Source of the DNA: Marinospirillum perlucidum
GTDB taxonomy: Bacteria; Pseudomonadota; Gammaproteobacteria; Pseudomonadales; Halomonadaceae
Length of the DNA: 64,000 bases
Direction: 5' to 3'
NCBI RefSeq assembly: GCF_003336805.1
Contig: NZ_QFWJ01000006.1
Span: 62,001 to 126,000 of the forward strand
A program made the translations under genes and the position numbers. Below are positions 40,588 to 56,576 of this stretch, one piece after another; position 1 is the stretch's first letter, and each line of letters starts with the position of its first letter. Below the pieces are notes generated by a model, which ran no database searches, was not told the DNA's origin, and saw only the letters and a list, made by a program, of their open reading frames with translations.

Positions 40588-40602
40588 TAGACCGATCGTC
40601 TA
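40588..40602. promoter_or_regulatory. TetR-type operator upstream of acuI
   Basis: TAGACCGATCGTCTA, inverted arms TAGAC/GTCTA. It differs by one base from the element at 41265-41279. Position just ahead of acuI suggests repression by the adjacent regulator. Confidence 0.75.
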
Positions 40603-40620
40603 GTAAATAACCGCAAAAAA

Positions 40621-41253
40621 CTATCGGGGCAGCCCCTGCAGATAAGCGGTCAAAAAAGTAGTGAGTGGCCGGGGCGAAGCTTCCAGCCGCGCCCGCATGA
40701 CTGCGCCTTCCCAGCCAATCCAGAAAGCCTCTGCCAGCAGGCGAGTATCAGCCCCTTCGGCCAAGTCTCCTTTAACCTTAGCGGCTTCCAGACAGGCTGC
40801 CAGTTTTTTTTGCCAGGACTCCAGAATAGCCGTCAGCAGACTGCGATAGTCCTCGGGCAAGAGACTGACTTCCTGCCCCAGATTGCCCACCAGGCAACCA
40901 CGGCGATAATCATGGCGCTGCATGCCAGCGGCCGCATCCTCGACAAAATCCTGGATACGCTCCAAGGGCGGACGGGCGTCATTGAGCAGATGACGATCCA
41001 GCTTGCGGGCGAAATAGGCACCATAGTGCTCCAGTACCGCTCGGCCAAAGGCATCCTTACTGGCAAAGTAATAATAGAAAGATCCCTTGGGAACCCCTAC
41101 CCGGCGTAGGATGGCATCCAGCCCCGAGGCAAAGAAACCCTGTTCCGTGAGCAACTCTGTTCCACTGCGGATCAGCGCTGCACGGGTATCTTCATCACTA
41201 GCGGGCTGTTTTCTGGGACGCCCGCGCCGGGGTTGGGAAGCTGAATTTTGCAT
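40621..41253 (-). CDS. TetR/AcrR-family regulator, likely AcuR-like
   Basis: 210 residues. N-terminal basic arm (RRGRPRK), TetR HTH at about 20-70 (GFFASGLDAILRRVGVPKGSFYYYF), C-terminal ligand/dimerisation domain with YRRGCLVGNLGQE, typical of the TetR_C subgroup controlling oxidoreductases. I place the start at ATG 41253: an in-frame TTG at 41289 would put the operator at 41265-41279 inside the coding region. Matching operators before this gene and before acuI predict autoregulation and control of acuI, probably relieved by acrylate or a similar electrophile. Confidence 0.85.
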   Translation of the reverse strand: MQNSASQPRRGRPRKQPASDEDTRAALIRSGTELLTEQGFFASGLDAILRRVGVPKGSFYYYFASKDAFGRAVLEHYGAYFARKLDRHLLNDARPPLERIQDFVEDAAAGMQRHDYRRGCLVGNLGQEVSLLPEDYRSLLTAILESWQKKLAACLEAAKVKGDLAEGADTRLLAEAFWIGWEGAVMRARLEASPRPLTTFLTAYLQGLPR

Positions 41254-41264
41254 AACGACGAATA

Positions 41265-41279
41265 TAGACCGGTCGTCTA
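41265..41279. promoter_or_regulatory. TetR-type operator upstream of the regulator gene
   Basis: TAGACCGGTCGTCTA, flanked by A and T that extend the arms to ATAGAC/GTCTAT. It is 11 bp ahead of the ATG and one mismatch from the acuI operator. Confidence 0.75.
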
Positions 41280-41317
41280 TAAAATGCAAACCGCAGAACA
41301 GGCACTTTTTGCAGCCA

Positions 41318-41342
41318 TAAAAAAAGCCTGCTAAAGCAGGCT
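41318..41342 (-). terminator. Minus-strand terminator, probably the original ssb terminator
   Basis: AGCCTGC (41325-41331), loop TAAA, GCAGGCT (41336-41342), with a seven-A run on the plus strand that reads as a T-tract on the minus strand. No gene on that strand ends here now; the nearest upstream feature is the left island end. Its structure and its distance to AGAAGGG equal those of the ssb terminator at 55847-55870. Confidence 0.75.
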
Positions 41343-41373
41343 CTTAGAGCATTATCTTTACATGACACTCTCA

Positions 41374-41390
41374 GGTGCATTTCAGAAGGG
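41374..41390 (-). other. Left attachment-site remnant of the island
   Basis: GGTGCATTTCAGAAGGG. On the minus strand its end reads CCC TTC TGA, the last two codons of SSB (Pro-Phe) plus a stop. It pairs with the sequence at the true ssb end (55903-55919, 13 of 17 identical, AGAAGGG exact). Confidence 0.6.
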
Positions 41391-41463
41391 TTAGGTTTAC
41401 CTGGTATCTTTCTAAAATCATGTAGGCACCTTCTTTTCTAGTCATTTGTCTTACAACTAATAA

Positions 41464-41736
41464 TTTAGTAAAGAATTTAGTAAAGATCAAGGATCTTTTA
41501 CCTTTTTTTTCTTAACACCATTAGAACATGCTTTCCTAGAGCTGCGATTTCACCGTGACACAAATGCAGTGGACTGCTTGAATCCCGATTGTGACATAGG
41601 TAACGATCTCAATCGTTGGATTTTCCATTACCTAAGTGACACCCAGCTAAACCAAATCAAGGCAAGTGTCAGGCAGCGTCGCAACAGAGAAAGACATCCC
41701 GACAAAATCAGGTATCGATTCCAGGCTGGTTTCTGA
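41464..41736 (+). pseudogene. 3'-terminal fragment of a lost gene inside repeat copy A
   Basis: Start-less open frame ending in the peptide NDLNRWIFHYLSD...RYRFQAGF and a TGA at 41734-41736. The second copy (45614 on) encodes the same peptide and also ends GF-stop. Of the differences inside the shared frame, three are synonymous (AGA/AGG, GGT/GGC, TTC/TTT) and one changes Thr to Ile, which suggests the segment was once under protein-level selection. The family is not recognised; residues before about 41590 may not belong to the original gene. Confidence 0.4.
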
Positions 41737-41752
41737 TTAATCTGGTCAGTAG
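41601..41752 (+). repeat. Direct repeat copy A (about 150 bp) left of the NTPase/phosphoesterase cassette
   Basis: Bases 41601-41729 match 45614-45742 with two mismatches; similarity continues to about 41752. It is bordered on the left by GTGACATAGGTAACG (41591-41605), which forms an imperfect inverted repeat with CATTACCTAAGTGAC (41626-41640). Confidence 0.92.
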
Positions 41753-41799
41753 TTCCAACCCAAATGCATGCTTTACAAAAACTTTTTACTGGATAACTG

Positions 41800-44004
41800 A
41801 TGACTACAATTTTGGATACTGACCGTGCACTTGAAGACAAAGAAAAAGACCAATTCGGCTTCGTTGGTATGGCTAAAAAGCTTGCCCCTTCAATCGTTCA
41901 AGCATCTAAAGGTGATGGCATAGTCATTGGGCTAGAAGGCCCCTGGGGCTCAGGAAAAACGTCACTTTTAAACTTTCTTCGTGCTGAGCTTGCTGCTAAC
42001 GATGGTGAAAATGTTCATACAATTACAATTGCTCCATGGTTGAACGGAGATTCTTCACCGCTGGTTTCAGCTTTACTAGACCCGATGGCAGCAATATTAG
42101 ATAGCCAAATCGCTGCCAATAGTTGCAGCACTGCGGGCAGATTGAAAGAAAGTGTGACTACAGCCAGCCAACTGATACGCACCTATGGTTCTAAAACAGC
42201 CCGCAGCATCTCTTCCCTTGCTGCAATTGCTGGATACTTTGCTCCTGGAGCCCAAGCAGTTAAAGGTGTTTCAGATGCAGTCGCCAACGCAGCAGATCAA
42301 TTATCAACTCCAGTACCCGCCCTTCCCGAGTTAAAGCATGAAATAGCAGAAAAAATTAAAGACCTCGATATTGGGTTTGTTGTCATTCTTGACGATCTTG
42401 ACCGCCTTGAACCTGAGCAAGCGGTTGAGGTTGTTCGACTTGTTCGCTCTGTTGCTGATTTCCCAAGAGTCGCTTACCTGATGTGCTATGACCGTGAAGT
42501 TTTGGCTCAAGCACTTGAGAGCGGCCTTAAAGTCTCAGACGGCGATCTTTACCTTCAGAAAATAGTGCAACTCACTTTCAACCTTCCTCTTCCTGAGCCA
42601 TTCGATCTTCGCTCTAATTTTCTGGATGAAGCTATAGCTATCTACGGTGAAATAACGGGTAAGCATATAGAGGGAAAACTACTCAACGACTTAAGATCGG
42701 CTGTTGACAGAGTGGGCATGGGATTATCAACGCCTCGTGAAGTTAAGCTTGCCTTGAATAGCATTCGTTTCGTATATCCACAGGTCACAGATGATGTATA
42801 TTTCCCTGATTTTTGCCGATTGCACTTGATAAAAACCACAAACTACAAGTTATATCAGTGGCTTGAGAGTTACCTTTCGTTACGCTCTGTTTTGGTCACG
42901 GGGGATGCGAAAATTTCAAATGATGAAAGGGAAGAAATAGGGAAAGAGTTAAAAATACTATTACCTTCAGAAAGCATAGATTCAGGCAATTCTATTTGGA
43001 ACTTAAAACGTTTCATTCCTGGTCTCGAAAATTCGGATGAAGACGACAAACGAGTATTCGCCTCTACCAATCCTTCCAGCATTAAAGATGCTATAGAGCT
43101 AAAGCGCCTTGGCAGTCCGCTACATTATCGGTTTTATTTTGCGCTGACCGGCCCAAAAACTGTAATGCCAGACAATGAATTTGACGGCCTATTAGAGCTG
43201 GCTCGCTCAGACCCTGCTCATTTAACCGCCTGTCTTGACGAACTAGCTATGGAGCGCCGAACAACTGGCAGAACATGGTTTGAACATGTACTAAATCGGC
43301 TAGATGACCAGCTTTTATCAGATCTTGACGAGAAGCAGCTGCTTGGCATCGTCCAAGCACTGTCTGACATGATGGATGTAGCAATAAAAGAAGATGGCGG
43401 ACACCGTGCATTTGCTATTTCACTTAGTGGCATTGCCATTCAAGTTGCAGAAAAATGCTTAAAGCAGTTGAGCGAATTGAATCCGAGCAGTCCGCTTGAG
43501 GCTATTGAATATATGGCAAGTGAAGGAAAAGCCATCAATTGGTTAGTTGGAGAGTTCTTCAGGTTTCAGCTTATCGCTCATGGAAAAATAGGAAAGGAAG
43601 CCCAAAGACCAGAACAGTGGGCAATCTCCAACGCCATCCTGGATAAAGCAATCACTATCCTGAAAGAACGTCTCAATTCGCAAGATACAAAAGAGCAAAT
43701 ACCCTGTTTGCCCGACATTTCTGCCTATTTGTATGGCTGGATGAACATAACCAATGATGACCAAGCTGTTGTAGCCTGGACTAGAGAATACAGCCAGAAT
43801 GACGAAGGCTTTCTTCGTATCCTAAATCACCTGAGAGGCTGGGTAATGAGCGACAAGGTTTACTACCCTCTTGCTAAAAGCAATGTTATTCGTTTTTTTG
43901 ATTGGGATGATGCAATTACCCGATTAGAACACATGAAAGATGGCGAGTTCGCTGATGAAGCCAAAGACCTTTTAACGGCGATTGAACAGTCCCGAGATTT
44001 TTAG
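41800..44004 (+). CDS. KAP-family P-loop NTPase (candidate anti-phage protein)
   Basis: 734 residues. Walker A GPWGSGKT at 47-54 and Walker B VVILDDLDR at about 194-202, followed by the KAP-type segment AYLMCYDREVLAQALE. The Walker A-B interval holds the expected insert (about 120-165), here only mildly hydrophobic, so membrane insertion is uncertain. The C-terminal 400 residues are helical without a known domain. KAP NTPases include PifA, which excludes phage T7, and are common in defence islands. Converges with the metallophosphoesterase gene, 25 bp between stops. AT-rich codon use contrasts with the core genome. Role in defence is inferred. Confidence 0.88.
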   Translation: MTTILDTDRALEDKEKDQFGFVGMAKKLAPSIVQASKGDGIVIGLEGPWGSGKTSLLNFLRAELAANDGENVHTITIAPWLNGDSSPLVSALLDPMAAILDSQIAANSCSTAGRLKESVTTASQLIRTYGSKTARSISSLAAIAGYFAPGAQAVKGVSDAVANAADQLSTPVPALPELKHEIAEKIKDLDIGFVVILDDLDRLEPEQAVEVVRLVRSVADFPRVAYLMCYDREVLAQALESGLKVSDGDLYLQKIVQLTFNLPLPEPFDLRSNFLDEAIAIYGEITGKHIEGKLLNDLRSAVDRVGMGLSTPREVKLALNSIRFVYPQVTDDVYFPDFCRLHLIKTTNYKLYQWLESYLSLRSVLVTGDAKISNDEREEIGKELKILLPSESIDSGNSIWNLKRFIPGLENSDEDDKRVFASTNPSSIKDAIELKRLGSPLHYRFYFALTGPKTVMPDNEFDGLLELARSDPAHLTACLDELAMERRTTGRTWFEHVLNRLDDQLLSDLDEKQLLGIVQALSDMMDVAIKEDGGHRAFAISLSGIAIQVAEKCLKQLSELNPSSPLEAIEYMASEGKAINWLVGEFFRFQLIAHGKIGKEAQRPEQWAISNAILDKAITILKERLNSQDTKEQIPCLPDISAYLYGWMNITNDDQAVVAWTREYSQNDEGFLRILNHLRGWVMSDKVYYPLAKSNVIRFFDWDDAITRLEHMKDGEFADEAKDLLTAIEQSRDF

Positions 44005-44029
44005 TGGTCAATCAACTAAGCGCCTCGCC

Positions 44030-45535
44030 TTAGCCAAGCTCATTTGGAGCGTATTTTTCAGCATAAAAAACAAACAAGCCGTCAGGATTACTACTCAAAC
44101 CATCCGGCACTGGTTGCATCTTACTGGCGCTAGAATCAACAGATGGAAACCAGCCAGCCCGGATGCCTCTCTCAGGCAAACCTTCGATCCAGGAAGAAAA
44201 ACGCTCATCAAAAACGGTGTGCTTTCCATATATTATCAGGGGTGCCAGACTGGCGACCTTTTCGACCATCCAACGGTCTTTTTCTCGTGAAAAATTAAGG
44301 GAATCACTACTGGTCAAAATTCTTCTCTCTTCAAAACCCGCTTGCTTCGCACGCAGATACCATGGCTGACTAAAAGCAGTCGTCTTTCGTGAAATCGATA
44401 ACACTTTAAACCCTGCATCTTTCGCATAATAAGGTACAGCCGAGTCAGGGCTATTTTTATGGCTCTCACTGACGAGTTGACACTCAAAATCTTGCTCACT
44501 GCTGAGTACACGCAACTCCCAACCAGGTTTGAATGGTTGTTTTTGAGCTTGATTTAAAAGGTCACGAATTCGAGGCAGATCGCTATCGTTATCCTGTCGA
44601 AAGAAAAGGGCTTCATAAGATCCGGTGCGCATCTTGACTCGTACACCACCGGGCAGGCTTACATCGCCGGATAAGTCCAGCATTTTTGTACCGCCACCTG
44701 GCAGGTCAACTGGATAAGAAAAGCCAGTCATGCATACCCTGTTTTGGGCTAACACATCATTTTCAGCTCTAGGGTAAAGCGGAAGATTTTTAATTTTCCC
44801 AAGCTCCACCAGCATCAGCTCAGCGGGCACAAAACTCGCATCGATATACACTCGATTTTCAAAACGATGAAAAGCGCCCAGAGCAGTCATCCGGGTCGCT
44901 GGTGTATGGCCAAATAAAGCGTAGTCCACGCCTCCTATCCTATGGCTCAGGGTGTCAGTGGATACAAGTGCGGCTTTGTAAATGGCCCAGGTCATCCAAC
45001 TGCGTTCATGCTCCTTCTTTTCCGGGTCAGCAAGCAAGGAAGCCGCCTGGCTATAGTCAGTTTGTGCAAGCCGATGCCCCCCAGGCAAGTCCGCATGAGC
45101 AATCACAAAGCGCTGTCCTTGGTGAGTGACTTCAATAATCCAGGGAAGCTGCCTCAATCGGTCACGCAGCCTATAAAGTTCTTTTTCGGGTGCCTTGCGT
45201 ACCCAATAGCCTCCTGCCCCCTGAATGTAGTCCTTCGCTTCTTGCGTACTCGGATTCTCGTCTTCTGCTAGATCGACAAACCCAGAAAAACCATCTAAAA
45301 ACAATTGCTCATGGTTACCCCGAACCGAGAAAAACCAGGGCTCCTCAAGGAGGGCACCAAGAGCAAGAGAGTCTGGCCCACGATCAATGAAGTCACCACA
45401 ACTAATGACACGGTCTCGGCTCGGATCGAAATCAACTAGGCGTAAGGCTTCCTGAAACTCACTGAACCGCCCATGAAGGTCACCGACAGCAAAGTCTCGG
45501 CCTTTGCAGTTTTCGGGCAACTTTAGAAAACTCAT
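44030..45535 (-). CDS. Metallophosphoesterase with unknown C-terminal domain
   Basis: 501 residues. Residues about 12-235 are a calcineurin-like phosphoesterase of the PrpA/lambda-phosphatase type: GDLHG (18-22), GDFIDRG (47-53), GNHE (73-76), His in VIAHADLPGGH (147) and GHTP (210). All dinuclear-metal ligands are present, so phosphatase or nucleotidase activity is likely. Residues about 245-501 form a beta-rich region I do not recognise, ending with ISRKTTAFSQPWYLRAKQ and later segments. It shares a repeat-bounded cassette with the KAP NTPase but is oppositely oriented, so it has its own promoter in 45536-45600 or in repeat B. Confidence 0.85.
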   Translation of the reverse strand: MSFLKLPENCKGRDFAVGDLHGRFSEFQEALRLVDFDPSRDRVISCGDFIDRGPDSLALGALLEEPWFFSVRGNHEQLFLDGFSGFVDLAEDENPSTQEAKDYIQGAGGYWVRKAPEKELYRLRDRLRQLPWIIEVTHQGQRFVIAHADLPGGHRLAQTDYSQAASLLADPEKKEHERSWMTWAIYKAALVSTDTLSHRIGGVDYALFGHTPATRMTALGAFHRFENRVYIDASFVPAELMLVELGKIKNLPLYPRAENDVLAQNRVCMTGFSYPVDLPGGGTKMLDLSGDVSLPGGVRVKMRTGSYEALFFRQDNDSDLPRIRDLLNQAQKQPFKPGWELRVLSSEQDFECQLVSESHKNSPDSAVPYYAKDAGFKVLSISRKTTAFSQPWYLRAKQAGFEERRILTSSDSLNFSREKDRWMVEKVASLAPLIIYGKHTVFDERFSSWIEGLPERGIRAGWFPSVDSSASKMQPVPDGLSSNPDGLFVFYAEKYAPNELG

Positions 45536-45613
45536 CTAAACAAACCCCTTTGACCAATTTATTTAGCGCTTTGATAAGCTCAGCCAATAGGAGCCTCTTA
45601 ATCGCGACCTATG

Positions 45614-45765
45614 TAACGATCTCAATCGTTGGATTTTCCATTACCTAAGTGACATCCAGCTAAACCAAATCAAGGCAAGTGTCAGGCAGCGTCGCAACAG
45701 GGAAAGACATCCCGACAAAATCAGGTATCGATTCCAGGCTGGCTTTTGATAAATCGGGTCGGTAA
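45614..45765 (+). repeat. Direct repeat copy B (about 150 bp) right of the NTPase/phosphoesterase cassette
   Basis: Near-identical to 41601-41752 (two mismatches in the first 129 bp). Encodes the same C-terminal peptide ending RYRFQAGF, with stop at 45747-45749. Preceded by GCGACCTATGTAACGA, a variant of the border of copy A and 15 of 16 identical to 50511-50526. Confidence 0.92.
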
Positions 45766-45961
45766 GCGGCTTTTGTTGTTCCCTTGGCTCTTGGGTTCTT
45801 GGCTCTCTCCAAGCTTTTCTTGCGCACCCCTTCCCTTTCTTCCACTCATCTACAACTTAGCAAATTAACGAGATGTATTTTATTGTCGGGTACACCTAGG
45901 TAGGCAAAGCTGTACTGGCTAAGCGCCTTAAGTTCAGGCAAGTTACTGTGATACGAGTAGC

Positions 45962-45993
45962 GGCTTAACCCACAATTTCGTTGGGTTAAAGCC
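45962..45993. terminator. Hairpin at the end of the res gene
   Basis: GGCTTAACCCA (45962-45972) and TGGGTTAAAGCC (45982-45993) form a stem with one bulged base, directly after the res stop codon. A T-run follows on the plus strand only, so direction of termination is ambiguous. Confidence 0.45.
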
Positions 45994-45994
45994 C

Positions 45995-48649
45995 CTAGTT
46001 TTTTAAACCATCAACCACCTGTGTTTTCACTTCCTTTGGATCTCCTTTTTCCATTGTCACCATAACAAATACGGCTTTGCCATTTGAAGCCTTAGCCCAC
46101 TGTTGGCCGATCAGTTCTTTTTCACGGCTATCCCGGCTTTCTTCTGGTGTTCGGTCTTTGCCTTTGTACTCAACTACTAGCAAGCGTCCGTCTTCCATTA
46201 AAGCCACAAAATCAGGATAGAATTTGTCCGTTGAGGTCGGCAATGAAAAGGAGTTTTTATGCCTGCTGACATTTCGTGTCCAGTATTTCAGTCCCGGCAA
46301 GCTATCTAATGCAAAGGCGCATTTCACTTCCTCACCGCCATCCTTGCTGTCAAAAGTTGGCACTTCATCTGACCCCATAAAATGGCGTTTAAACTTATAC
46401 ATGCCACGGTACTTGGGTACATCAAAGTACATTTCATCAAAAAACCGGATACCGTCACTGAAAGAAACTTCAATACGTGCAGTTGAACCAAAAAGGTTCG
46501 CCTGGTAAACCTTGTTACGCTCTGCCTGGCGAAAGGCTTTGATTTTTTCGTTTAGCTTGCGTGCCAGTATAAATTTACAGCGCATCAGTTGGGCTAGCGG
46601 TATCTCTCTATCTCTGACTAGATGTGTTATAACATCGTTAAGCCAGGCTAGGAGTTCAGTTTGGCTGATCCAGGGATCTCGTACTTTCCCATCAAGCCAC
46701 CTTACCAGTGCGCCTTGTGTCCAGTCTTCCACCTCTATATTGAGGGCAAGTTGCTCACTGCTATCTGCAGCCGCAATTGAAAGGCGGTTTCCATCCAGGT
46801 CAATCTCAAAAGTATTGGTGGTTTCGACTATATCAAACTCGGTTTTGGTTAACCTTACAGGGTGGTCGCTCAATGACCAATCGTGGTACTCCATCAGAAT
46901 ATCGGTTTCACCAAAGACCAGTTCGTCCTGCACATACGCCATTAGGCGCGGAATCGTGAATTCTTCACCTTTATGGGCCGGTGGTATCTGGTATTCGTGC
47001 TTTGTGTTATGCGCCTCAATATCTGCTTTAATTCTCTCTTTCAGTCGCTCTGGCGTACGCTTTATCACCTCTTCAGCTTCTGCGGGTTTTAGAAACCCTT
47101 CAATCTCTAAAACAGTTTTACCCGCTTCTTTTGATCGCAATTTGATTTTGCTGGGCATGGCCGCTGCAATGTTTTTCGCTTCGTCTTCGCTAGCGTCAAT
47201 CTCCATCTCCATTGTTGGGCGTGGGCGTGTTTGGTGCCCAAAGAGTCCGTCATCTAGCCCTAGCTGTTCAGGTTCGATATTGCTTTCTGCTTCGCTCTCT
47301 TCAAAGCCCATATCAATCAGCTTGTCACGCAGTGCCATAGCTGCCTCTGAAAAGCTCTTTGATACCAGCTTGGCATAGGATTTATTAAGTGCTGGTTCTT
47401 TGCGTTTTTTTGCATAGGGCATCCGTAATACACGGCCAAGCAGTTGCTCGGCATCCGTTGCACTGCTGATATTCGCTAAAGAACAGAATACATAAGCAAA
47501 AGAACAGTCCCAGCCTTCTTTTAGCGCCTCTATGGTGATGACATACTCAATCGGGCAATCAGGTTTAAAAAGGTCGATTCCGTCTAAATCACGCTGTGCG
47601 CCGGTTGCTACTGCAATCTTTTCTGGATCGATATTTTCATTGTCGATCAAATGGCTGCGAAGCACCTCCACCGTCACCTCTCCACCTTTTTTCTGTGCTT
47701 GGAATAGCACGATAGGTCGAATATAACCTTCACGGTCTCGGTCAGCATGTTCTTGTAACTCTGCGCGCTTAAGAATCGCCGAGTTCACCGCACCCTGCCA
47801 GGTTTCTGCTTCATCCAGCACTACTGGCATTTTGATCATTTCTTCATCTTTCAGCTCTTGTGCTGTTACGGTGTGAAGAATGTTATTAAACCCCTTGGGC
47901 GTGGCGGTGAACTCGATCAAGGCGCTTGGGTTGATGCGTTCATAGACATCTTGGCTAAGCTTGGTTCCTGCTTTATGAGCCTCATCCATAATCACCAATG
48001 GCCGATGCAGGTGCATCAAATTAGCAAAACTGAACTTGATTCTACCCTTGCTCGGCTCTTCTTCATTTCTCTCTAGCCCCTGTGTATTAGGTGGTACAGT
48101 GCTGAAATGCCCTTCTAACATTTCATGGTGGGCATAAACCCTACGCCCATCCGTGTTGCTAACTCTCAAGGTTTGGATGGTGCCAACCACAACGCAAAGA
48201 TTCGAGCGTAAATCGTGCGGCATTATCTGTGTGAAATCGCCTATATCGAACACACGAACGCGGCCCTCAAAAGCTTCATCCAGTGCCTTTCGATAGGGGT
48301 GACGGGGGTTTTTTAATGCTTCTGCGGTTTGCCGGCGTATCGTGTTCGTAGGAACTAGCCACAATACCAGCGGAAAGTCTTTTTCCACCCAGGCATCCTT
48401 GGCTACTGCAATTGAGTGTGCAGCAAGTATTGTTTTACCGCCCCCTGTTGGCAGGCGCAAACAAACATAAGGCACGCTAGGCAATGCTTTGATAGGCTCG
48501 TATTTACCACTATAACCCTTGAGTCGCTGAGCTATTTCGGGCTTTTTTGTGACCGCTTCATAGGCTGCTTTAGGTTCACTGGTACGGGCCTTTTCCAGAA
48601 AGTCTTTTAGCGTATTGAGTGAGCTTTTCTGGTATTCCTTCAGCTTCAT
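45995..48649 (-). CDS. Type III restriction enzyme, Res subunit
   Basis: 884-residue ATP-dependent DNA translocase and endonuclease. Helicase motif I LPTGGGKT (66-73), motif II DEAH in VIMDEAHKAG, motif III FTATPKG, motif VI in EQLLGRVLRMPYA. The C-terminal nuclease core carries YPDFVAL...LLVVEYKGKD, a PD-(D/E)xK arrangement. Works with the Mod subunit to cut when two unmodified sites are in head-to-head orientation. Its ATG overlaps the mod stop (ATGA). Length and motif set appear complete. Confidence 0.93.
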   Translation of the reverse strand: MKLKEYQKSSLNTLKDFLEKARTSEPKAAYEAVTKKPEIAQRLKGYSGKYEPIKALPSVPYVCLRLPTGGGKTILAAHSIAVAKDAWVEKDFPLVLWLVPTNTIRRQTAEALKNPRHPYRKALDEAFEGRVRVFDIGDFTQIMPHDLRSNLCVVVGTIQTLRVSNTDGRRVYAHHEMLEGHFSTVPPNTQGLERNEEEPSKGRIKFSFANLMHLHRPLVIMDEAHKAGTKLSQDVYERINPSALIEFTATPKGFNNILHTVTAQELKDEEMIKMPVVLDEAETWQGAVNSAILKRAELQEHADRDREGYIRPIVLFQAQKKGGEVTVEVLRSHLIDNENIDPEKIAVATGAQRDLDGIDLFKPDCPIEYVITIEALKEGWDCSFAYVFCSLANISSATDAEQLLGRVLRMPYAKKRKEPALNKSYAKLVSKSFSEAAMALRDKLIDMGFEESEAESNIEPEQLGLDDGLFGHQTRPRPTMEMEIDASEDEAKNIAAAMPSKIKLRSKEAGKTVLEIEGFLKPAEAEEVIKRTPERLKERIKADIEAHNTKHEYQIPPAHKGEEFTIPRLMAYVQDELVFGETDILMEYHDWSLSDHPVRLTKTEFDIVETTNTFEIDLDGNRLSIAAADSSEQLALNIEVEDWTQGALVRWLDGKVRDPWISQTELLAWLNDVITHLVRDREIPLAQLMRCKFILARKLNEKIKAFRQAERNKVYQANLFGSTARIEVSFSDGIRFFDEMYFDVPKYRGMYKFKRHFMGSDEVPTFDSKDGGEEVKCAFALDSLPGLKYWTRNVSRHKNSFSLPTSTDKFYPDFVALMEDGRLLVVEYKGKDRTPEESRDSREKELIGQQWAKASNGKAVFVMVTMEKGDPKEVKTQVVDGLKN

Positions 48650-50280
48650 TTCCGTGCCTTCACATCGTAGGGGGTTTGTTTGAACTCAATCTGTTCCGCC
48701 TTCAAGGTTGGCTCAGTAAGTGCGGTGCGTTCACCGTAAACAGTTAGTGGGCCAGTAAAATCACCCTGGGCGGCTCGGATCACGGCCAGCGTTTTACGGG
48801 TCAAGACATTACCGCCAGAGGCTGACTTATCACCAAGGATTCCGTTATAAAGCAGCGCATAGCCTTTGCCCTCATGCGCCCCAAGAAACGGGGTCAGGGG
48901 CTGGGGTTCCGTCCACGGGCTGCCGGTTTCCGCGAACCAGATATGAGCGGCAAACACGGGGAAGCGGATATCGGGCTGGATCTGGCCGTCCTCGGTAAAG
49001 ACCGGCGGGCCGAGGCGGTAAAAGCGGAACCCGCCACCGCCTTGCCACTTCACTGCTTTTGAAATGCCCCCGTTTTCGCCTTCGATAACTTTCTGAAGGC
49101 GCGGGGCGCAATGCGTCACGGCATGATCACCACGTTCGATGCCAATCCATCGACGATTCATCTTATGAGCTACGGCTGCCGTTGTTCCAGAGCCGAGAAA
49201 GCTATCCAGCACTATATCGCCCGGTTTGGAGAACAGCTCGAAGACGCGCTTCACGAGCGCTTCGGGCTTCTTGCTCTTAGGGAACTTTACTTGCCCTTCA
49301 TTGTGCAGGTTGTTCGACCGGAGGTCGTCCCAAAGGTTGGTCAAAGGCTCGCCAGCGACAAGTTGCCCGTCTATTTCCTTGAGCTTACTACGATAAAACA
49401 ACCAACGCTTCCCGTTTTGAAGATAGATGTCTGGGTGGTTCTCCCGTTCTTGAAGAAAGAGGCGCCCCGGCTCTTGAAGCGATAGGTCGATCATATCCCG
49501 CGTTTCCTGACCGACGGCGTTGTAGTCAGGCGAAACAGGTTGAACAACTCGGTGCGAATTCTCGATGACAAAGTCGTTCAGCGCATTCTCGTATTCGTCG
49601 CCTAGCGATTTCTTATGCTCAGTAACCTTCATGTCTGCACTGGTCGCAAAAGCCCTAGTAAGGGGGATCAGCTTCCAGACCTGATAGGGTTCGTCATAGT
49701 TCTGGATAAACGATGAGTATCGCTTGTCCCGTTCCCGGCCTGTAAAGACACGATAGGGGGCCCATGCCTCAGACTTGTCCTTCGCATACATCAGAACATA
49801 GTTTGTTACGGTCACGAGGCCGGGGTTAATCGACTTATGCCCCACTGCCGCTCCTTGCACGAAGGTCGCAAGGTTCACCCTATTCGAGCGCCCAAAAATT
49901 TCGTCCATGATCACGATGAAGTAGGCGAGTTCCTCATCATCAAGATGGACAGCAACCGTTCCCCCTGGAGCTAAGAGCTCATGGATGAGCTGCATCCGGG
50001 GAACCATCATTCCGAGCCAAATTGAGTGCTCCAGATTATCGTCGTAGTGCTCAAATGCCTGGCCGGTGTTAAAAGGCGGGTCGATATAGATGCATTTCAC
50101 TTGCCCAGCGTAGTAGGGCAGCAGCGCCTTCAAGGCATCCAGGTTGTCGCCTTGAATCAGCATATTGCCTGCTTCCTGGTCGCCATAGCCTAATTCAGGA
50201 ACTTCTTCTAAAAGACGATAAGGCACCTTCTCAGCTGCCCTTATATCTTCTTCTCGTGTTAACCATTGTAAAATAGGCAC
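48646..50280 (-). CDS. Type III DNA methyltransferase, Mod subunit
   Basis: 544-residue adenine-N6 methyltransferase of the beta class: catalytic DPPF in YIDPPFNTGQAF near residue 85 comes before the AdoMet motif DSFLGSGTTAAVA near 365. A target-recognition region of about 200 residues lies between them. It modifies and recognises the asymmetric site for the Type III complex. GTG start at 50280 (MPILQWLTREEDIRAAEKV). Its middle and 3' parts look clearly richer in G+C than res and the recombinase genes, hinting at separate ancestry of the recognition region. Overlaps res by 4 bp. Confidence 0.93.
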   Translation of the reverse strand: MPILQWLTREEDIRAAEKVPYRLLEEVPELGYGDQEAGNMLIQGDNLDALKALLPYYAGQVKCIYIDPPFNTGQAFEHYDDNLEHSIWLGMMVPRMQLIHELLAPGGTVAVHLDDEELAYFIVIMDEIFGRSNRVNLATFVQGAAVGHKSINPGLVTVTNYVLMYAKDKSEAWAPYRVFTGRERDKRYSSFIQNYDEPYQVWKLIPLTRAFATSADMKVTEHKKSLGDEYENALNDFVIENSHRVVQPVSPDYNAVGQETRDMIDLSLQEPGRLFLQERENHPDIYLQNGKRWLFYRSKLKEIDGQLVAGEPLTNLWDDLRSNNLHNEGQVKFPKSKKPEALVKRVFELFSKPGDIVLDSFLGSGTTAAVAHKMNRRWIGIERGDHAVTHCAPRLQKVIEGENGGISKAVKWQGGGGFRFYRLGPPVFTEDGQIQPDIRFPVFAAHIWFAETGSPWTEPQPLTPFLGAHEGKGYALLYNGILGDKSASGGNVLTRKTLAVIRAAQGDFTGPLTVYGERTALTEPTLKAEQIEFKQTPYDVKARK

Positions 50281-50357
50281 TTGCTAAGTCTTTCCTTTAT
50301 CCGTCTATACTCTAGATCATTCGCTCAAACAGCTGGCCTGATCGACACTGCAGCATA

Positions 50358-50486
50358 CTACTGCTTATAAAAAGACTCCGTCTTGAAATACTGAACCATC
50401 AGGTTTTCAAAGCTAGTACCCTTGTCACGCTCGCTGAGTGTTCTTTTACGGAATTGCTGAAGTAGATGCTGAAGAGGAGTTTCCAT
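50358..50486 (-). pseudogene. N-terminal stump of a helicase/nuclease (Type ISP-like) gene
   Basis: 42 codons from an ATG at 50486 with a good AAGGGA ribosome-binding site, then a stop. The peptide segment TLSERDKGTSFENLMVQYF resembles the N-terminal opening of large DEAD/DEAH helicase-nuclease proteins of the Type ISP restriction class (typical T-E-R-x-K-G-x-x-F-E-x-L). Those run to well over 1000 residues, so all but the start has been lost. Sits between the mod gene and the recombinase module. Confidence 0.55.
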
Positions 50487-50510
50487 TACAAATCCCTTAA
50501 AATATTGCTT

Positions 50511-50526
50511 GTGACCTATGTAACGA
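50511..50526 (+). repeat. Short third copy of the cassette-border element
   Basis: GTGACCTATGTAACGA, 15 of 16 identical to 45604-45619 and 14 of 16 to 41591-41606. Lies between the stump and the last gene of the recombinase module; the longer 150-bp repeat does not follow here. Confidence 0.6.
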
Positions 50527-50559
50527 CAAAGAGGTGAATGATCATTACTGTATTCTACA

Positions 50560-50988
50560 TTAACGCATCTCACCATCGGTTCTGTCGCGGTCAATCAGTG
50601 GTAGGCGCTCATTCAAATCTTGCTCCGTCAAGCCGCGCTTGTAAGCATTGTATTGCCAGATCGCAAACATTTGCTTGTACTTCGCATTGATATCTTTGAG
50701 CATTTGGACTTCACGCTCAAGCCTGGCTATGCGCTCACCAGCAACCTTCAAACTTGATGGGCGTTTTTCTCCTTGAACCTTCTGCTTATGGCCTTTTTTA
50801 ACTGACTGATAAGCTGACTTAATTTGCTCATGTGCATTCAGAGCTTGCCTGGTTGGCTGCCATCCAATTATAGGAGCAATTGCTTCAGCAATCGCATCCC
50901 AGGTGAGTTTTCCGCTATCAGCTTCCGACCAGCCTAAGATCAAGCTGACAATAGCCTCTATGTCTTTTCTTGTCAGTCGCTTAGCCAA
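50560..50988 (-). CDS. Small helical protein of the recombinase module (TnpC/GmtX-like by position)
   Basis: 142 residues. N-terminal HTH-like half (LTRKDIEAIVSLILGW, LTWDAIAEAIAPIIGW) and a C-terminal coiled coil (about 80-112, RIARLEREVQMLKDINAKY). TTG start at 50988 preceded by AGGAGG at ideal spacing; overlaps the upstream recombinase by 8 bp. In Tn554 the third gene, tnpC, is a small protein that modulates transposition, and Gamma-Mobile-Trio modules also carry one small partner. Homology was not tested; the assignment is by position and size. Confidence 0.7.
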   Translation of the reverse strand: MAKRLTRKDIEAIVSLILGWSEADSGKLTWDAIAEAIAPIIGWQPTRQALNAHEQIKSAYQSVKKGHKQKVQGEKRPSSLKVAGERIARLEREVQMLKDINAKYKQMFAIWQYNAYKRGLTEQDLNERLPLIDRDRTDGEMR

Positions 50989-52975
50989 GGCCGCCTCCTA
51001 GCAATTTCGTTGCTTCTGCGAGCATTTCAGGCTGCTCACTATCATTCCCAAGAGTCTCTGGAGACTTTTTATTGATCACTCTTTTCAACTGACTGAAATC
51101 ATTGCCGCGCAGTTTGACCTGGGCTCCATCAGCAACACTTGGATCTTCAAGAATAGAGGCAAGCTCACGTAGACGGTGAAGCGTTTTCTCATGGTATTGA
51201 TACCACCGATCAGCACCCATTTCACCATCATTCACCGACTGGGTTGCCACCTCAAAAAGTCGCTCGACTTTTGCTAAACGGGCTTTGATTCGCTCAAGAT
51301 TTTCTGTATTGCCTTTGATGCATACCTGCTCAGTACAGTTAACGCAGTCTCGGTACTTCTCACATGGACTGATCGTGTAGTCATGAACACAGTAGCCATA
51401 CTCGGTCACATGAGCAGCTGCCTGCGTCAACGCATTAAACTCTAAGGTTGAAACAGGCAGGTTTGCAGGGGCTTCACCGATCGGGCCAAACAGTTCTTTT
51501 GAAGGGTCAAAGCTTTCAGCCAAACTCACCAACTCATATTCGCTCATGTGGTTATACGTGCGATTCTGCTTAACATCCGCACGTCCTGACCACTTGGCAA
51601 TCTCCAGGTTGGACAGCCCACCACGCTGGGCAATGGTGTTCAGCAGATGTCTTGCTTGGTGAGATGTCATTTTGAGGCGGCGGCCATCTGCATCACTATA
51701 ACCGTGCCTATCGAAAATGCTTTTGTGCTTTTCACCTAACGTCTCTCTAGGGGTTAGGTCGTTATTGAAGAAGTTGTGACTTGGTTTGTGTAATTCGACC
51801 GGTATAGTAGGGCGATTACCGTGGAACTGATTTATGTTGAGTGCAAATAATGCATCTTTGTATTTAATTCCTATTTTTTTATCGAACCAGGGAAAATCAG
51901 AAGGCAAGTGCTCTAGCGCATGCGCCCATAGGCTATTTAGGGTATGAGCACCATCCTTGGGGGCAAGACCACGGTTCTGAAATGTCTTAAAACCGAGTGC
52001 CTGCTGAACCTGCTTCAGTGTCAGCGGCTCGTCGTCAGCAACCTCTGGACAGCTTTCATGCCGGTAAAATTTTTCAGGATGGTCTTCGATCCATGCAGCC
52101 AAGGCACGTGCATTAGCTGATAACTTTTTCAGTCGGCTAACGGCTTCTTTGGCGACTGAAACCATCTCTGAAGGAATCCATTTAATATCACCCTCAAAGC
52201 CTTTTCCAGAAAAGAATCGCCATCCATATCGCTCAACACCATCACGATCCACTTCAGTAATTTCACAATCGACTGGCAGAGCAAGAACCTCAGTAATGCG
52301 AGAAGGTGCTGACATCAACATTGCAAATACAGAGGTTGTAAAAATGTCACGCTCATCTGTTGGATTATTGGCAAATATTTCAGCGAGTGCTTCTAAAGCC
52401 AAATCATTAGGTAAGCGCTTGTCTCTCTGCTCGTTTCCCTGCTTCCCTGTTTTATTTCTATCATCTGGTCGCCGAATGGGTGACTGCCAGCCCAGGACAG
52501 GGCTAGGGACTAGCTTGTTATCGGAAACAAACTCACTCAGCCGCTGCAGCTCTCGGCCAGCATGGTAGCCACCACCTGCACCATAATGCTGTAAAACTAA
52601 CTGAGCAGCCTCATCCAGCACACTATAGGAAAGTCCTTTGAGCGCAGCGGAGCCTGTCACCTGAAGCAACGCAGCTTCAAGTGCCCTGAGGGCTTTACCC
52701 TCATTTTTTGTACCTGTTGGCTTATGTCCTTGCTGATACCGAAAATAAGCCTTAGCAAACTCAATAAACTCGGCGTCCATGACTTCATCATCTTTCGGCT
52801 TGCGAGTTGTCACCCCGAGTTTTGCAAAAGTAGCAATTTTTGGCCAAGTGGCGAGATACCAAGGCAGATCTACACCAAAAACTGTGAGGTCATCCCGGCA
52901 CTTCCTAATAAATTCTTCCAAGTTCTTTTCAGCGGTGAGTTCATCGCGTGGCTTGAATAAGAACACATTGCTCAT
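50981..52975 (-). CDS. Large tyrosine-recombinase-like protein (TnpB/GmtZ-like by position)
   Basis: 664 residues. A DNA-breaking-rejoining domain lies at about 210-490: Arg I in SAPSRITEVLALP, HxxR in TSHQARHLLNT, Trp in IAKWSGR, and nucleophile Tyr in NRTYNHM, so the catalytic set looks complete. A downstream Cys cluster (GYCVHDYTISPCEKYRDC then CVNC-type spacing, about 520-550) could bind zinc. The N-terminal 200 residues are a core-binding-like helical region. ATG overlaps the previous stop (ATGA) with AGGAGC upstream. Confidence 0.82.
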   Translation of the reverse strand: MSNVFLFKPRDELTAEKNLEEFIRKCRDDLTVFGVDLPWYLATWPKIATFAKLGVTTRKPKDDEVMDAEFIEFAKAYFRYQQGHKPTGTKNEGKALRALEAALLQVTGSAALKGLSYSVLDEAAQLVLQHYGAGGGYHAGRELQRLSEFVSDNKLVPSPVLGWQSPIRRPDDRNKTGKQGNEQRDKRLPNDLALEALAEIFANNPTDERDIFTTSVFAMLMSAPSRITEVLALPVDCEITEVDRDGVERYGWRFFSGKGFEGDIKWIPSEMVSVAKEAVSRLKKLSANARALAAWIEDHPEKFYRHESCPEVADDEPLTLKQVQQALGFKTFQNRGLAPKDGAHTLNSLWAHALEHLPSDFPWFDKKIGIKYKDALFALNINQFHGNRPTIPVELHKPSHNFFNNDLTPRETLGEKHKSIFDRHGYSDADGRRLKMTSHQARHLLNTIAQRGGLSNLEIAKWSGRADVKQNRTYNHMSEYELVSLAESFDPSKELFGPIGEAPANLPVSTLEFNALTQAAAHVTEYGYCVHDYTISPCEKYRDCVNCTEQVCIKGNTENLERIKARLAKVERLFEVATQSVNDGEMGADRWYQYHEKTLHRLRELASILEDPSVADGAQVKLRGNDFSQLKRVINKKSPETLGNDSEQPEMLAEATKLLGGGLG

Positions 52976-54534
52976 TGAAGTGCTCCTTGCTCTTGCATAA
53001 GCTCAACCCGCCGACTTTCACAGCGCTGGATAACGTCAGCAACAGCAGTAATGCTTCGGTCAAGCGTTGCTGCAACCTGGAGGTCGCCTGTAATCTCAAT
53101 CAACCTCTCACGCTCCCCTAAGAGGTGCTTATAGACTTCTTCATGCGGCCCATCAAGCCAAGGCTGGAAATGCATGCAGGTATAGCAGGGAATAGGAACA
53201 TTGGCTCCGCAAAAACCATGTTCTCCGCACGTTCCAATTCCGCAGCCCTCTTCTGTCCTGACGCGACTTGTAGCGTCTTCACCTCTCTTGGCATCCTTTT
53301 CCGAGTCAACTAAAACACCCGCAAATGCCTGAGCATAAGGAGCCAACTGGAACCCAACAGCCTCATCTAGGCGTTTTACATGCTCTGGAATGTTTTTGAT
53401 GTACACGCCTGCATTTTGAGTGTCTGAGTGATCTAGCAACTCCGCAATCACCAGCTCACCAAAACCCTCTCTGGCAGCGCGTGTTCCGGTTGTGTAGCGA
53501 AAACGGCGTGCATTTATAGCTAAGGGCTCACCAGTTCTCTCCGAGAAAATATCTGCTGCTGAAACTGCTTCCTGTATGACTTTAGTTATTCCCCTCGATA
53601 CGATGTGGAGCTTATCTGTTTTAACTAGCTCTCTATATTCATCGATAAAGCTCAACTCTTGTAGTGCATCTTCGTTTGGAAACATTGGCAATTGCAGTTT
53701 TTCTTTTTCTGTCAGCGCAAACCCCAAGCTTTCTTCTGCTTTCTTAATAACAGACTGGACATGAGTGTTCACAACGACCCACAACTCTTCAGTCATCGCA
53801 AAAGCCTTAAAGCTATTTCTAAAACCGTCTCCCTGTTTGCCTCTTGGCACATTCAGAATGTAGTAGGGTTCGCCCTTGGTATTTGAGCCACAAATCAGAT
53901 CAGCAACTCGCATGTGTGATATCTGAATGGGTCGACGTCCAGTGCTACTTGTAATTAAACAAATTGCAAGATCTGACAGAGTGATCAGATCTTGCTCGTA
54001 GGCCATGACAACACCCTCATTAAAAGATTGAAGTTCAGCATCCGATAGTGGCCCTTCTATTGGGTCCATCCTTTTTACTGCATCCCCTTTTATGCATCCT
54101 TTGATTCGCCATCCCTTTAGAAGCGTGATCACATCGTCGTTAATACCGGGATACCCAAGTTCGTGCCATTTTTTCAGAAAGGTACGTATTGTACCTAAGT
54201 GCCACTCATTTTTTTTAGTGAGCGAAGCGCGATAGTTAATAAGAGTGTCAGAATCGATTTGCTGCGCGCCGGTAGCTCTCATCATTGATAGACATTGCCT
54301 GCAAGCAATACTTGCGGAAACCGCCGAAAAATTCTCAGCATAGAAAGCCAGTGCCTGAATGAAGCCCTCACATGTTTCGTCATCTAAAAGCATTAATACT
54401 GGCTCTAGATTTATTTTTATATCTTTACTTAGAGTCCATATTTTATCATTTAAGCTGAAATCATACCCTTTATTAAACCCTTTCCTAGTTTTACTGGCAC
54501 TGTCGCTTATGCCCGTATTTTCAGCCTTCACCAT
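52972..54534 (-). CDS. Tyrosine-recombinase-like protein (second of trio, GmtY-like by position)
   Basis: 520 residues from ATG 54534, chosen because AGGAGG lies 8 nt upstream; the frame could extend nine codons further. Recombinase fold: Arg I in SSTGRRPIQISH, HxxR position reads RRFRYTTGTR (His replaced by Arg), later His in LLDHSD and Tyr in NAGVYIKN. A Cys-rich block (GCGIGTCGEHGFC then PCYTC) follows about 50 residues after the Tyr, reminiscent of TnpB-type proteins. Overlaps the upstream recombinase by 14 bp and the next gene by 4 bp. Confidence 0.8.
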   Translation of the reverse strand: MVKAENTGISDSASKTRKGFNKGYDFSLNDKIWTLSKDIKINLEPVLMLLDDETCEGFIQALAFYAENFSAVSASIACRQCLSMMRATGAQQIDSDTLINYRASLTKKNEWHLGTIRTFLKKWHELGYPGINDDVITLLKGWRIKGCIKGDAVKRMDPIEGPLSDAELQSFNEGVVMAYEQDLITLSDLAICLITSSTGRRPIQISHMRVADLICGSNTKGEPYYILNVPRGKQGDGFRNSFKAFAMTEELWVVVNTHVQSVIKKAEESLGFALTEKEKLQLPMFPNEDALQELSFIDEYRELVKTDKLHIVSRGITKVIQEAVSAADIFSERTGEPLAINARRFRYTTGTRAAREGFGELVIAELLDHSDTQNAGVYIKNIPEHVKRLDEAVGFQLAPYAQAFAGVLVDSEKDAKRGEDATSRVRTEEGCGIGTCGEHGFCGANVPIPCYTCMHFQPWLDGPHEEVYKHLLGERERLIEITGDLQVAATLDRSITAVADVIQRCESRRVELMQEQGALQ

Positions 54535-55756
54535 GATCAGCCTCCTTTGGGGCCCTGACACCTGAGCGTTCTTGCATTGCTAGTGATGCTTTATGCCCTG
54601 CTTGTTCAACAAACCGTCTGTTATACGTTGCTGCTGTTCCTGATCCCTGCTTCCAGCCCATCAGAAATGATCTTACCTGTTCTTGCTTTTCATGCGATGG
54701 TGAATCAGTCATTGCATCTAGCTTTTCCGAAAAATTTCTGTTCCACGTGTGGCGCAGCATGTGTCCGGTAATTTCACTTAATTCGGGAAACTGGCTTCTC
54801 AGGTCAGATACAACCTTCTGATAACCGCTGATTGATAGCGGCATACCACTGCTCGGGCCTTCTTTATGGGTCACCATCAAGTAGTCATGTTTACGTGCCC
54901 CAGGCACACTACGTCGATCTTTTGTGATGTAGCCATGCAGATCTTTCATCAGCAAGTCTGACAAGGGCAGGCGCCTACTTTGAGTTTTGGCATTGGGTGA
55001 CTGAACTCGAACATCATCTTTGTCATCCGCACGGCGAACAATGGCCAATTGATTGCTATTAAAGTCAACATCCTGGATGCGTATGTTTAGTAGTTCACCT
55101 CGGCGAATGCCTAGATGTAGCAAAAGGAGAATAATCAGCTTGTTTCTGGCCTGCACCTTGCTACCAAATGGGTTTAGCTCTGAGCCTGGCCTGATCACCT
55201 CAAGCAAAGCCTCAATTTGACCATCATTGATTGACCGGTCTTTAGGGTTTCTGTTCTTCTTTTTCGGCCTACGCGCTCTAACCTGCTCAACCATACGCTT
55301 CAGGTTTGCTTGGAAGCTGTCAGAAGGGCTCGTGACCAATACGAGTGGAAGCCATTTCAGGTAATTTGCGATAGATGTTAAACGTGCGTACTGGGTTCCC
55401 AAGCAAACCCCTTCAGTTTTTTTTCGGAAGCTAGAAATACTAACAACCGTGGAGTCAGCATGATTCTTGCTGAGGTTTTTCTGGCAAAAGTCACGCAAAT
55501 GATCAATTTCTTGAACGCTAAGACATTCCTGATTTCTCAGCCTGCTTTCCAGGTCAATCTCTTGTCTCTTGCAAAATGAGTAGAGTCCAACAAGGTGTGC
55601 AGCTTCGGCAGCCAAGGTTGAAGATGAAACGCTTCTGTTTCTTAACTGTGTCATCAGGTAGAGGTTCGGATAATATACTGGCAAGCCACTTTCCTTGGAC
55701 ACCATCAAGCTGTAGCGCTCACCGGTATCAAAAACAAAACTTGAGACGTGGAACAT
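54521..55756 (-). CDS. Tyrosine site-specific recombinase/integrase (first of trio)
   Basis: 411 residues, the most canonical integrase of the module. SAM-like core-binding domain at about 90-170; catalytic domain at about 185-395 with Arg I in LGIRRGELLNIRI, Lys region, HMLRHTW (HxxR), a Trp in MGWKQG and the nucleophile Tyr in TAATYNRRF. It resembles TnpA of Tn554-like elements. Nearest of the four genes to the ssb junction (154 bp), as expected for an integrase next to its attachment site. ATG start at 55756. Confidence 0.87.
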   Translation of the reverse strand: MFHVSSFVFDTGERYSLMVSKESGLPVYYPNLYLMTQLRNRSVSSSTLAAEAAHLVGLYSFCKRQEIDLESRLRNQECLSVQEIDHLRDFCQKNLSKNHADSTVVSISSFRKKTEGVCLGTQYARLTSIANYLKWLPLVLVTSPSDSFQANLKRMVEQVRARRPKKKNRNPKDRSINDGQIEALLEVIRPGSELNPFGSKVQARNKLIILLLLHLGIRRGELLNIRIQDVDFNSNQLAIVRRADDKDDVRVQSPNAKTQSRRLPLSDLLMKDLHGYITKDRRSVPGARKHDYLMVTHKEGPSSGMPLSISGYQKVVSDLRSQFPELSEITGHMLRHTWNRNFSEKLDAMTDSPSHEKQEQVRSFLMGWKQGSGTAATYNRRFVEQAGHKASLAMQERSGVRAPKEADHGEG

Positions 55757-55846
55757 AAATTGCCAACACCTTTTTTACACTTTTACATAGTATCCATAAC
55801 CTCTTAAGCCCCAGCAACCTCTTCTTTACATTAATTCCAATACAAT

Positions 55847-55870
55847 AAAAAAAAGCCTGTTAATACAGGC
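55847..55870 (-). terminator. Terminator now serving ssb (island-borne)
   Basis: GCCTGT, loop TAAT, ACAGGC with an eight-A run on the plus strand, i.e. a T-tract for minus-strand transcripts, 41 bp beyond the ssb stop. Confidence 0.85.
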
Positions 55871-55902
55871 CTTTAAGATAGATTTTTACTCTTTATATCT
55901 AT

Positions 55903-55919
55903 GGTACATCCTAGAAGGG
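55903..55919 (-). other. Right attachment site overlapping the ssb stop
   Basis: GGTACATCCTAGAAGGG, covering the last codons and the TAG of ssb. AGAAGGG is repeated exactly at 41384-41390. Confidence 0.6.
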
Positions 55920-56576
55920 AATATCATCATCCATGTCATTAAAGCTGGGGGCACCGGGCGCTGGCTGCTGAGGCGGCTGACTTTGAGGCTGGCCACCCTG
56001 CTGGGGATAACCACCCGGCTGTTGATAGTTGGGCTGAGGTTGAGCCGGTGCCTGGTGCTGTGGAGGCTGTTGTGGCGCCGGTTGCTGCGGCGCGGCCTGA
56101 GGCATGGGCTGCTGTTGTGGAGCCGGCTGGCTATAGCCGCCCTGAGGCTGAGAGTAACCCTGTTGATTCTGTGGAGGAGCCTGGTTGTAATCCATGGGCG
56201 CAGCACGCCCGGCATTACCGTAAGCCTGGCCACCACCACCGGCTGAATCCAGCATCTGCATTTCGTTGGCGACAATTTCCGTGGTGTACTGGTCTACACC
56301 CTGTTGGTTCTGCCATTTCCGCGTTTGCAGCTTGCCTTCGATATAGACTTTACTGCCTTTTTTCAGATACTGACCAACGATCTCAGCCAGGCGGCCGAAA
56401 AAGACGACCCGGTGCCATTCGGTTCTTTCCTGCTGCTGACCAGTATTCTGGTCTTTCCATTGTTCGCTGGTGGCCACACTGACGTTAGCCACCTGTTTCT
56501 GGTTCTGGGTAAAACGTACGTCAGGGTCCTGCCCCAGATTACCGATCAAGATGACCTTATTGATGCCCCTTGCCAT
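55911..56576 (-). CDS. ssb: Single-stranded DNA-binding protein
   Basis: 221 residues. OB fold at about 1-110 ([51 protein letters not shown]), then a long Gln/Pro/Gly linker (about 118-208) and the conserved acidic tip DMDDDIPF that recruits repair proteins. Tetrameric, coats ssDNA in replication and repair. The linker is longer than in E. coli SSB. The island integrates exactly at its 3' end but the reading frame and terminator are restored. Confidence 0.97.

Follow-up and report, generated by a model that had tools for sequence, protein, structure and literature searches.

The stretch of DNA analyzed here, in the following called the window, comprises 64,000 nt of Marinospirillum perlucidum (GCF_003336805.1, NZ_QFWJ01000006.1:62,001-126,000, forward strand) and carries an island at the 3' end of its ssb gene. 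The genes ginA, ginB, ginC and ginD adjoin ssb and are read away from it, the cargo genes follow after ginD, and the far end is AT-rich (Table 1), with an AT content of 0.615 over positions 41391-41790 versus 0.534 for the island. Across 41-56 kb the G+C content was 44-53%, compared to about 55% around. With three tyrosine recombinases and a small fourth gene, 41391-55913 is, by its gene content, a GInt. The island carries defence genes as cargo; the gene for a PifA-like NTPase faces the phosphoesterase and type III restriction-modification genes, giving a defence-like cargo set.

Table 1. Features at the ssb locus of the window
Feature	Position	Strand	Basis and remarks
Whole island (GInt)	41391..55913		14,523 bp between the two overlaps; register from empty/filled pairs
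ssb, target gene	55911..56576	-	PF00436 1.1e-40; protein end ...MDDDIPF, stop TAG
CCCTTC overlap (6 bp, Pro-Phe codons) next to ssb	55914..55919	-	register from P1, F, IncN and IncC empty/filled pairs
CCCTTC overlap (6 bp) at the far junction	41385..41390	-	register from empty/filled pairs and sequence
Left-end module of the island, with stop TAG, GTAAA-containing site-like stretch, hairpin 55855-55870 and T-tract	55839..55913	-	covariance model R1, terminator score
ginA, tyrosine recombinase, 411 aa	54521..55756	-	PF00589 9.8e-16; 50% identity to E. coli plasmid relative
ginB, tyrosine recombinase, 529 aa	52972..54561	-	NF041502 3e-200; 62.5% to plasmid relative
ginC, large recombinase-like protein, 664 aa	50981..52975	-	66% to relative; no Pfam match
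ginD, small protein, 142 aa	50560..50988	-	53.5% to relative
Cargo: type III methyltransferase (Mod)	48646..50280	-	PADLOC 3.5e-132
Cargo: type III restriction enzyme (Res)	45995..48649	-	PADLOC 8.4e-181
Cargo: calcineurin-like phosphoesterase	44030..45535	-	PF00149 6.8e-14; no PADLOC match
Cargo: PifA-like KAP P-loop NTPase	41800..44004	+	PADLOC PifA 1.8e-263; PF07693 8e-42
AT-rich right end	41391..41799		CAGGTAAACCTAA beside the overlap; positions 41468, 41480 and 41771 carry GTAAAG or its complement
Displaced element, probably the earlier stop (TGA) and terminator of ssb, hairpin 41326-41341; second, older GInt left end by score	41311..41384	-	
acuR and acuI, outside the present island	39589..41289	-	AcuR 1.8e-94; synteny

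The island was assigned by the published description of GInts (PMC5385486, Bardaji et al. 2017; this paper and PMC10214605 are represented throughout by passages of their texts), and its proteins were compared with relatives from P. aeruginosa, Pseudomonas sp. and Stutzerimonas. A ginABCD operon stands in order at one end, cargo (41800-50280) and a short AT-rich other end follow after ginD, and the island is flanked by imperfect direct repeats, here 7 exact bases within a longer imperfect repeat, with 27/55 identities beyond; 10-17 nt are given for published GInts (PMC5385486). All four gin genes have homologues in the same order on E. coli and Citrobacter plasmids (L110 and L111), with identities of about 50, 62, 66 and 53% for GinA to GinD. 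GinC is said to be without some catalytic residues (PMC5385486); R226, H439, R442 and Y474, which we took by eye for catalytic positions, were invariant among four GinC proteins. The GInt/Tn6571-type elements of that study share the operon layout, the tripartite structure and the imperfect direct repeats with the window island, as well as site-specific insertion at the ssb end with the product unaltered, and 6 of the 11 GInts chosen there for analysis lie within an ssb homologue, with attL overlapping its end. Thus, island and attB belong to a known kind, and the ssb 3' end is not the unusual attB that the original prediction, made from the letters of the window, had seen in it.

Another element with a recombinase trio (SE, RIT or Tn554-like) is a very improbable identity for the island. 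All of these have several recombinase genes, and SEs resemble the island in their four recombination genes, one of them encoding a small fourth protein, in a 6-bp footprint and in having no known transfer genes (PMC10214605). However, SEs have the order IntA, Tfp, IntB, Srap and other protein clusters, and 'ssb' appears nowhere in the text of PMC10214605, whereas in the window the large recombinase-like protein comes third, directly before the small gene. A recombinase, a second recombinase, a large recombinase-like protein and a small protein, together with the ssb-end target, correspond to the description of a GInt.

The heptamer AGAAGGG recurs at both island ends as originally predicted, at 41384-41390 and 55913-55919. 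Since it was found at four plus-strand and four minus-strand positions in the window, the heptamer alone is weak evidence. The register carries weight: a GCCTG...CAGGC hairpin with a T-tract begins on both sides at a distance of exactly 49 nt from the first base of CCCTTC, in agreement with the predicted equal spacing, and 27 of 55 bases after CCCTTCT are identical between the two copies (a hand count had given 29), a value reached by 4 of 20,000 mononucleotide shuffles. By the covariance-model and HMM matches given below, the shared unit at the two island ends extends beyond the terminator alone. When the window was compared with Rfam, only sub-threshold matches were obtained; the best one, Trp_leader at 55847-55935 (27.7 bits versus a gathering score of 41), we took to be the left-end hairpin.

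A tRNA attachment site for the island was rejected, as no tRNA gene was found in the 64-kb window. Integrases are known to insert at, and restore, the 3' ends of tRNA genes, and SGI1 inserts at the 3' end of trmE. Like these, the window island occupies and restores a conserved gene's 3' end; unlike the tRNA-directed elements, it supplies a stop codon and a terminator and not tRNA sequence.

The exact crossover position was read from pairs of empty and filled sites on P1-like, F and IncN plasmids, whose GInts are relatives 61-63% identical in GinB, and on IncC plasmids, whose GInt belongs to a distant lineage with 29% GinB identity. The junctions of all four pairs fell at CCNTTY, the six bases that code for the Pro-Phe of the SSB tip. 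P1 (L112) and a filled P1-like plasmid (L110) had common sequence up to CCGTTT-T, and at the far island end host sequence returned after CCGTTCT. Where the two overlaps differed (T/C in P1, A/G in IncN), the host base was located at the ssb side and the island base at the far side. After insertion, the stop codons TGA of P1 and TAA of F were replaced by the island TAG. In the filled IncN and IncC sites the island stop TGA ended the SSB frame at DDIPF. The empty frames (IncC L131 1501-2031, IncN L133 1501-2034) run past this canonical tip by 15 codons in IncN and 9 in IncC, and thus insertion trims these proteins to DDIPF. None of the empty P1, F, IncN and IncC sites had a left-end module. In P1 the distance from ssb to isaA is only 29 nt with no hairpin visible by eye, and therefore the P1-like island brings a terminator rather than restoring one. 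In the window, CCCTTC is followed by TAG at ssb and by TGA at the far end, which supports the predicted insertion at the ssb 3' end with supply of a new gene end, the TGA stop being exchanged for TAG.

We analyzed how regularly GInts carry such a terminator by scoring hairpin plus T-rich tract between the SSB stop and ginA against 99 dinucleotide shuffles, with p up to 0.05 counted as significant. Set A consisted of 37 loci from plasmids, genomes and the window, two of them not assessable; set B of 80 named loci picked up with a GinB profile, of which 75 remained after five that were cut off upstream. An SSB tip with a stop before ginA was present in 71 of these 75, 60 of the 71 with an ssb match upstream. 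A significant terminator was detected in 24/27 set A and 65/71 set B loci with SSB tip, i.e. in 89 of 98 ssb-docked GInts. The 27 include plasmid L130 (p 0.15), whose SSB tip was recognised later; without it, set A gives 24/26. In L127 and L129 the test was not passed, even though a hairpin is visible. Loci without a recognised tip had a terminator in 1/9 cases in set A, 3/4 in set B and 1/2 among further plasmids. The left ends of the three from set B (L330, L372, L378) resemble by eye those of ssb-docked relatives, which fits an island-borne terminator, and plasmid L116, also without SSB tip, has ssb-type sites and no hairpin. L123, with a tip-like DDAIQF and p 0.06, was placed in neither group, and three loci could not be scored: L128 for want of an intact ginA, L146 because it is cut and L149 because no ginA was detected. 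Judged by these loci, the association of SSB tip and terminator is strong, not absolute.

The comparison of relatives shows that recombination proceeds through an overlap of 6 bp, CCNTTY, which codes for Pro-Phe in the conserved SSB tip. At the ssb junction, the host overlap is kept and followed by the island stop codon, a site-like sequence, a predicted intrinsic terminator and ginABCD; at the far junction, the island right end and the island overlap precede the former downstream DNA of the host. We propose that GinA to GinD perform the exchange. The carried stop and terminator would preserve the SSB tip and the end of the ssb mRNA, and the terminator may also insulate ginA from transcription of ssb. 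Altogether, we consider it highly probable that 41391-55913 is a GInt integrated at the ssb end that carries its own stop and predicted terminator.

Several points weigh against this conclusion or narrow it. The overlap is identical at both ends, so the host copy is not visible from the window alone, and what we take as the empty state is that of a single genome of the same genus, G003, where only 1.7 kb of contig follow ssb. The functions of terminator and insulation are predictions. The terminator is not exclusive to loci with SSB tip, as 5/15 without a tip have one. The survey rows are not independent, since several left ends are identical (L110/L118/L119; L374/L375; L392/L393) or nearly so (L328/L329/L348), and set B was found with the profile of one GinB lineage, that of the window. 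Furthermore, an external promoter also contributes to transcription of the published GInt that occupies another target (PMC5385486), and insulation therefore does not hold for GInts in general.

The hairpin beyond the far junction was studied with two models, a covariance model built from seven GInt left ends (six from outside the genus plus window 55838-55913) and a hidden Markov model (HMM) of the six outside ends with the window genome excluded. The window left end, itself among the training sequences, scored 60.2 bits with the covariance model, and its terminator score was 31.5 (p 0.016, 60 shuffles). The displaced copy at 41311-41384 reached 42.4 bits with the covariance model (E 1.1e-5), compared to E values of 2.1e-8 and 1.5e-6 for the same-genus genomes G003 and G005, respectively. 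With the HMM the E values were 6.5e-5 for the displaced copy, 3.9e-7 for G003 and 0.0095 for G005, and the window's own left end was not listed at E up to 10. Throughout the 3.07 Mb of the window genome, the two top covariance-model matches were the two window copies, the third having an E value of 0.55. Two independent terminators with a chance likeness of GC-rich hairpins are, given these E values, the equal spacing and the rarity of 27/55 identities in shuffles, a most improbable explanation of the repeat, even if short hairpins with T-tracts are common and only 27 of 55 bases match.

A relative in which ssb ends in TGA, followed by sequence like 41318-41390, had been predicted and was observed in G003, where a sequence resembling 41384-41311 (63 of 82 aligned positions) lies directly 3' of ssb. 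The left end of plasmid L111 matched the G003 sequence at 60/83 positions, and the window left end matched the G003 sequence at 54/81; by these alignments, the plasmid end is at least as close to G003 as the window left end. In view of G003, the left hairpin was probably the former ssb terminator, as originally predicted; it is probably not a plain native one, because it matches GInt left ends in both models. We infer that 41311-41384 was probably the ssb terminator before the present insertion and is probably a relic of an earlier GInt, whose left end would have served ssb until the present GInt inserted at the tip before it. G005 has a TAG-type ssb end like 55847-55905 (57/77), and no gin match was found among the open reading frames (ORFs) in the 16.9 kb after its ssb. 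A TAG end with such sequence and no recombinase genes had been named in advance as speaking against the island, and G005 partly corresponds to it; we read its end as a relic left end and not as evidence against the island. In none of the seven same-genus genomes did an ORF downstream of ssb (1.7 to about 17 kb covered) match the window gin proteins.

The genes acuR and acuI lie between the displaced terminator and the gene at 37746-39374, and they are absent from this position in G001 and G004. There, the homologue of the 37746-39374 gene comes after ssb, which does not agree with acuR as the ancestral ssb neighbour; hence, acuRI looks like a separate gain, which may or may not be old GInt cargo. 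The right ends of relatives bear ATCAGGTTATGTGAA or ATCAGGTAATTAGAA. No clear motif of a right-end relic for the older left end was recognized at 39360-39600, and without mismatch the right-end motif occurred only at the true right end, in the window and the stretches of seven relatives.

Left ends without gin genes were also found elsewhere. When 390 genomes of the order were scanned with the covariance model under strict filters, which makes the counts a lower bound, 11 of the 18 best matches (E up to 0.011) stood exactly at an SSB-type stop, besides the displaced window copy and six elsewhere. Of the 11, only G000 and G126 matched the window gin proteins within the 1.5 kb that were covered. 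For ssb flanks, 119 of 139 loci passed the filters (ssb match, sufficient length; a few genomes were represented twice), and 5 of 117 flanks without ginA match had the module with both motifs, six further ones the first motif only and six the second only. With position weight matrices, scores of at least 10 were obtained for clade I in 4/117 ssb flanks versus 2/209 control ORF ends and 1/5,950 shuffles, and for clade II in 4/117 versus 0/209 and 5/5,950; the control on other ORF ends was not clean. In leave-one-out scoring, the window left end reached only 8.0 and L120 only 0.3. The end present in G077 belongs to the other gin lineage; it aligned to GInt L148 from the stop to the T-tract and no further, and no ginA match was found downstream of its ssb. 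Each of the two distant gin lineages has solo copies of its own type.

Non-autonomous islands behind the other solo ends were rejected: ten stretches of 19-20 kb gave no gin match, and in all but G158 the downstream genes, judged by eye, looked like ordinary chromosomal ones. These ten stretches contained a single match resembling a right end, with one mismatch, in G257, less than 100 bases from the stretch end. In G158 (L297 1061-4700), the gene directly behind a strong solo left end after ssb looks SIR2-like by eye; this may be a cargo-only island. Among the 11 genomes of one genus (L308-L320), several types of ssb 3' flank were seen by eye while the coding tip was conserved; the flank is perhaps a turnover hotspot there.

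On plasmids, 89 records matched the 161-nt left end, 33 of them over at least 80%, and among the 60 matches listed 35 stopped at base 74, just past the terminator. The P1-like plasmid L403 (3515-5607) contains ssb, the left end, some 30 bases that align with the beginning of ginA and, immediately after these, an anti-phage dGTPase gene. Its pieces aligned to the complete Citrobacter GInt L111 at 18560-18789 and 34880-36303 and are contiguous at 4193/4194. By this alignment, L403 shows an internal deletion in which the gin genes were lost and the end that serves ssb was kept. The 90-95% identity band of the left-end search into which L403 falls held 52 plasmid records.

The module might instead be native to the ssb of this order and have been copied or captured by GInts, the left hairpin being a plain host terminator. 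We regard this as unlikely. G003, G005 and nine genomes without nearby gin match do have the module right after the SSB stop, and some modules within one genus look vertically inherited by eye (G207, G267). Set against these, the module is a minority state among the flanks without ginA match, it is missing from the empty P1, F, IncN and IncC sites, the 11-genome genus shows several flank types, both gin lineages have solo copies of their own type, and the L403 end with its cargo gene aligns to a complete GInt as an internal deletion. We rather favor the reading that the portable GInt gene end can outlive the loss of gin genes as terminator of ssb and that later GInts insert before it, giving layered flanks at a shared dock.

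The distribution of GInts was in line with such a dock. GInts about 62% identical in GinB lie directly after plasmid ssb genes, and 16 of the 20 fetched plasmid GInts had ssb or an SSB tip directly upstream, on IncY (P1-like), F, IncN, IncC, Pseudomonas and other plasmids. The 161-nt left end was 100% identical at the E. coli chromosomal ssb1 and on plasmids, and at least 80% of it was contained in 365 of 5,426 E. coli genomes. In L137 (G364:C13:40000-56000), a single GInt region behind ssb gave two matches each to GinC and GinD and may hold GInts in tandem. GinB peptide patterns in viral contigs and GinB tblastn in phage records gave no match. No transfer genes are known for GInts, and the 2017 study did not achieve transfer of natural ones (PMC5385486); thus, docking at the ssb of a mobile replicon is a plausible transfer route. 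Judged from these replicons, ssb is plausibly a common dock for chromosomes, conjugative plasmids and P1-like phage-plasmids, and docking at plasmid or phage-plasmid ssb genes would provide vehicles for an element without transfer genes. In the literature outside most subscription journals and supplements, which included passages of PMC5385486, PMC10214605, PMC10121019 and PMC12595487, no statement of this spread route was found.

The island itself is ordinary; of interest are the carried stop plus terminator, the persistence of relics and the shared dock. In the main text of PMC5385486, as distinct from its supplementary tables, 'terminator' does not occur, and the passages considered contained no description of a carried stop and terminator, of SSB trimming in IncC and IncN plasmids, of docking at plasmid ssb genes or of solo left ends. 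The same study noted that unrelated GInts share the ssb target, a convergence it called remarkable. An explanation may be that chromosomes and the plasmids moving between them share an SSB tip whose DNA sequence is conserved, and that the self-supplied stop and terminator would render insertion harmless. If the reading of a portable, persisting gene end is true, ssb 3' flanks are a layered record of past visits, with two layers in the window. The left-end signature could be used to find past and gin-less GInts, and docking at ssb offers a testable explanation of how defence systems might be spread by elements that lack transfer genes.

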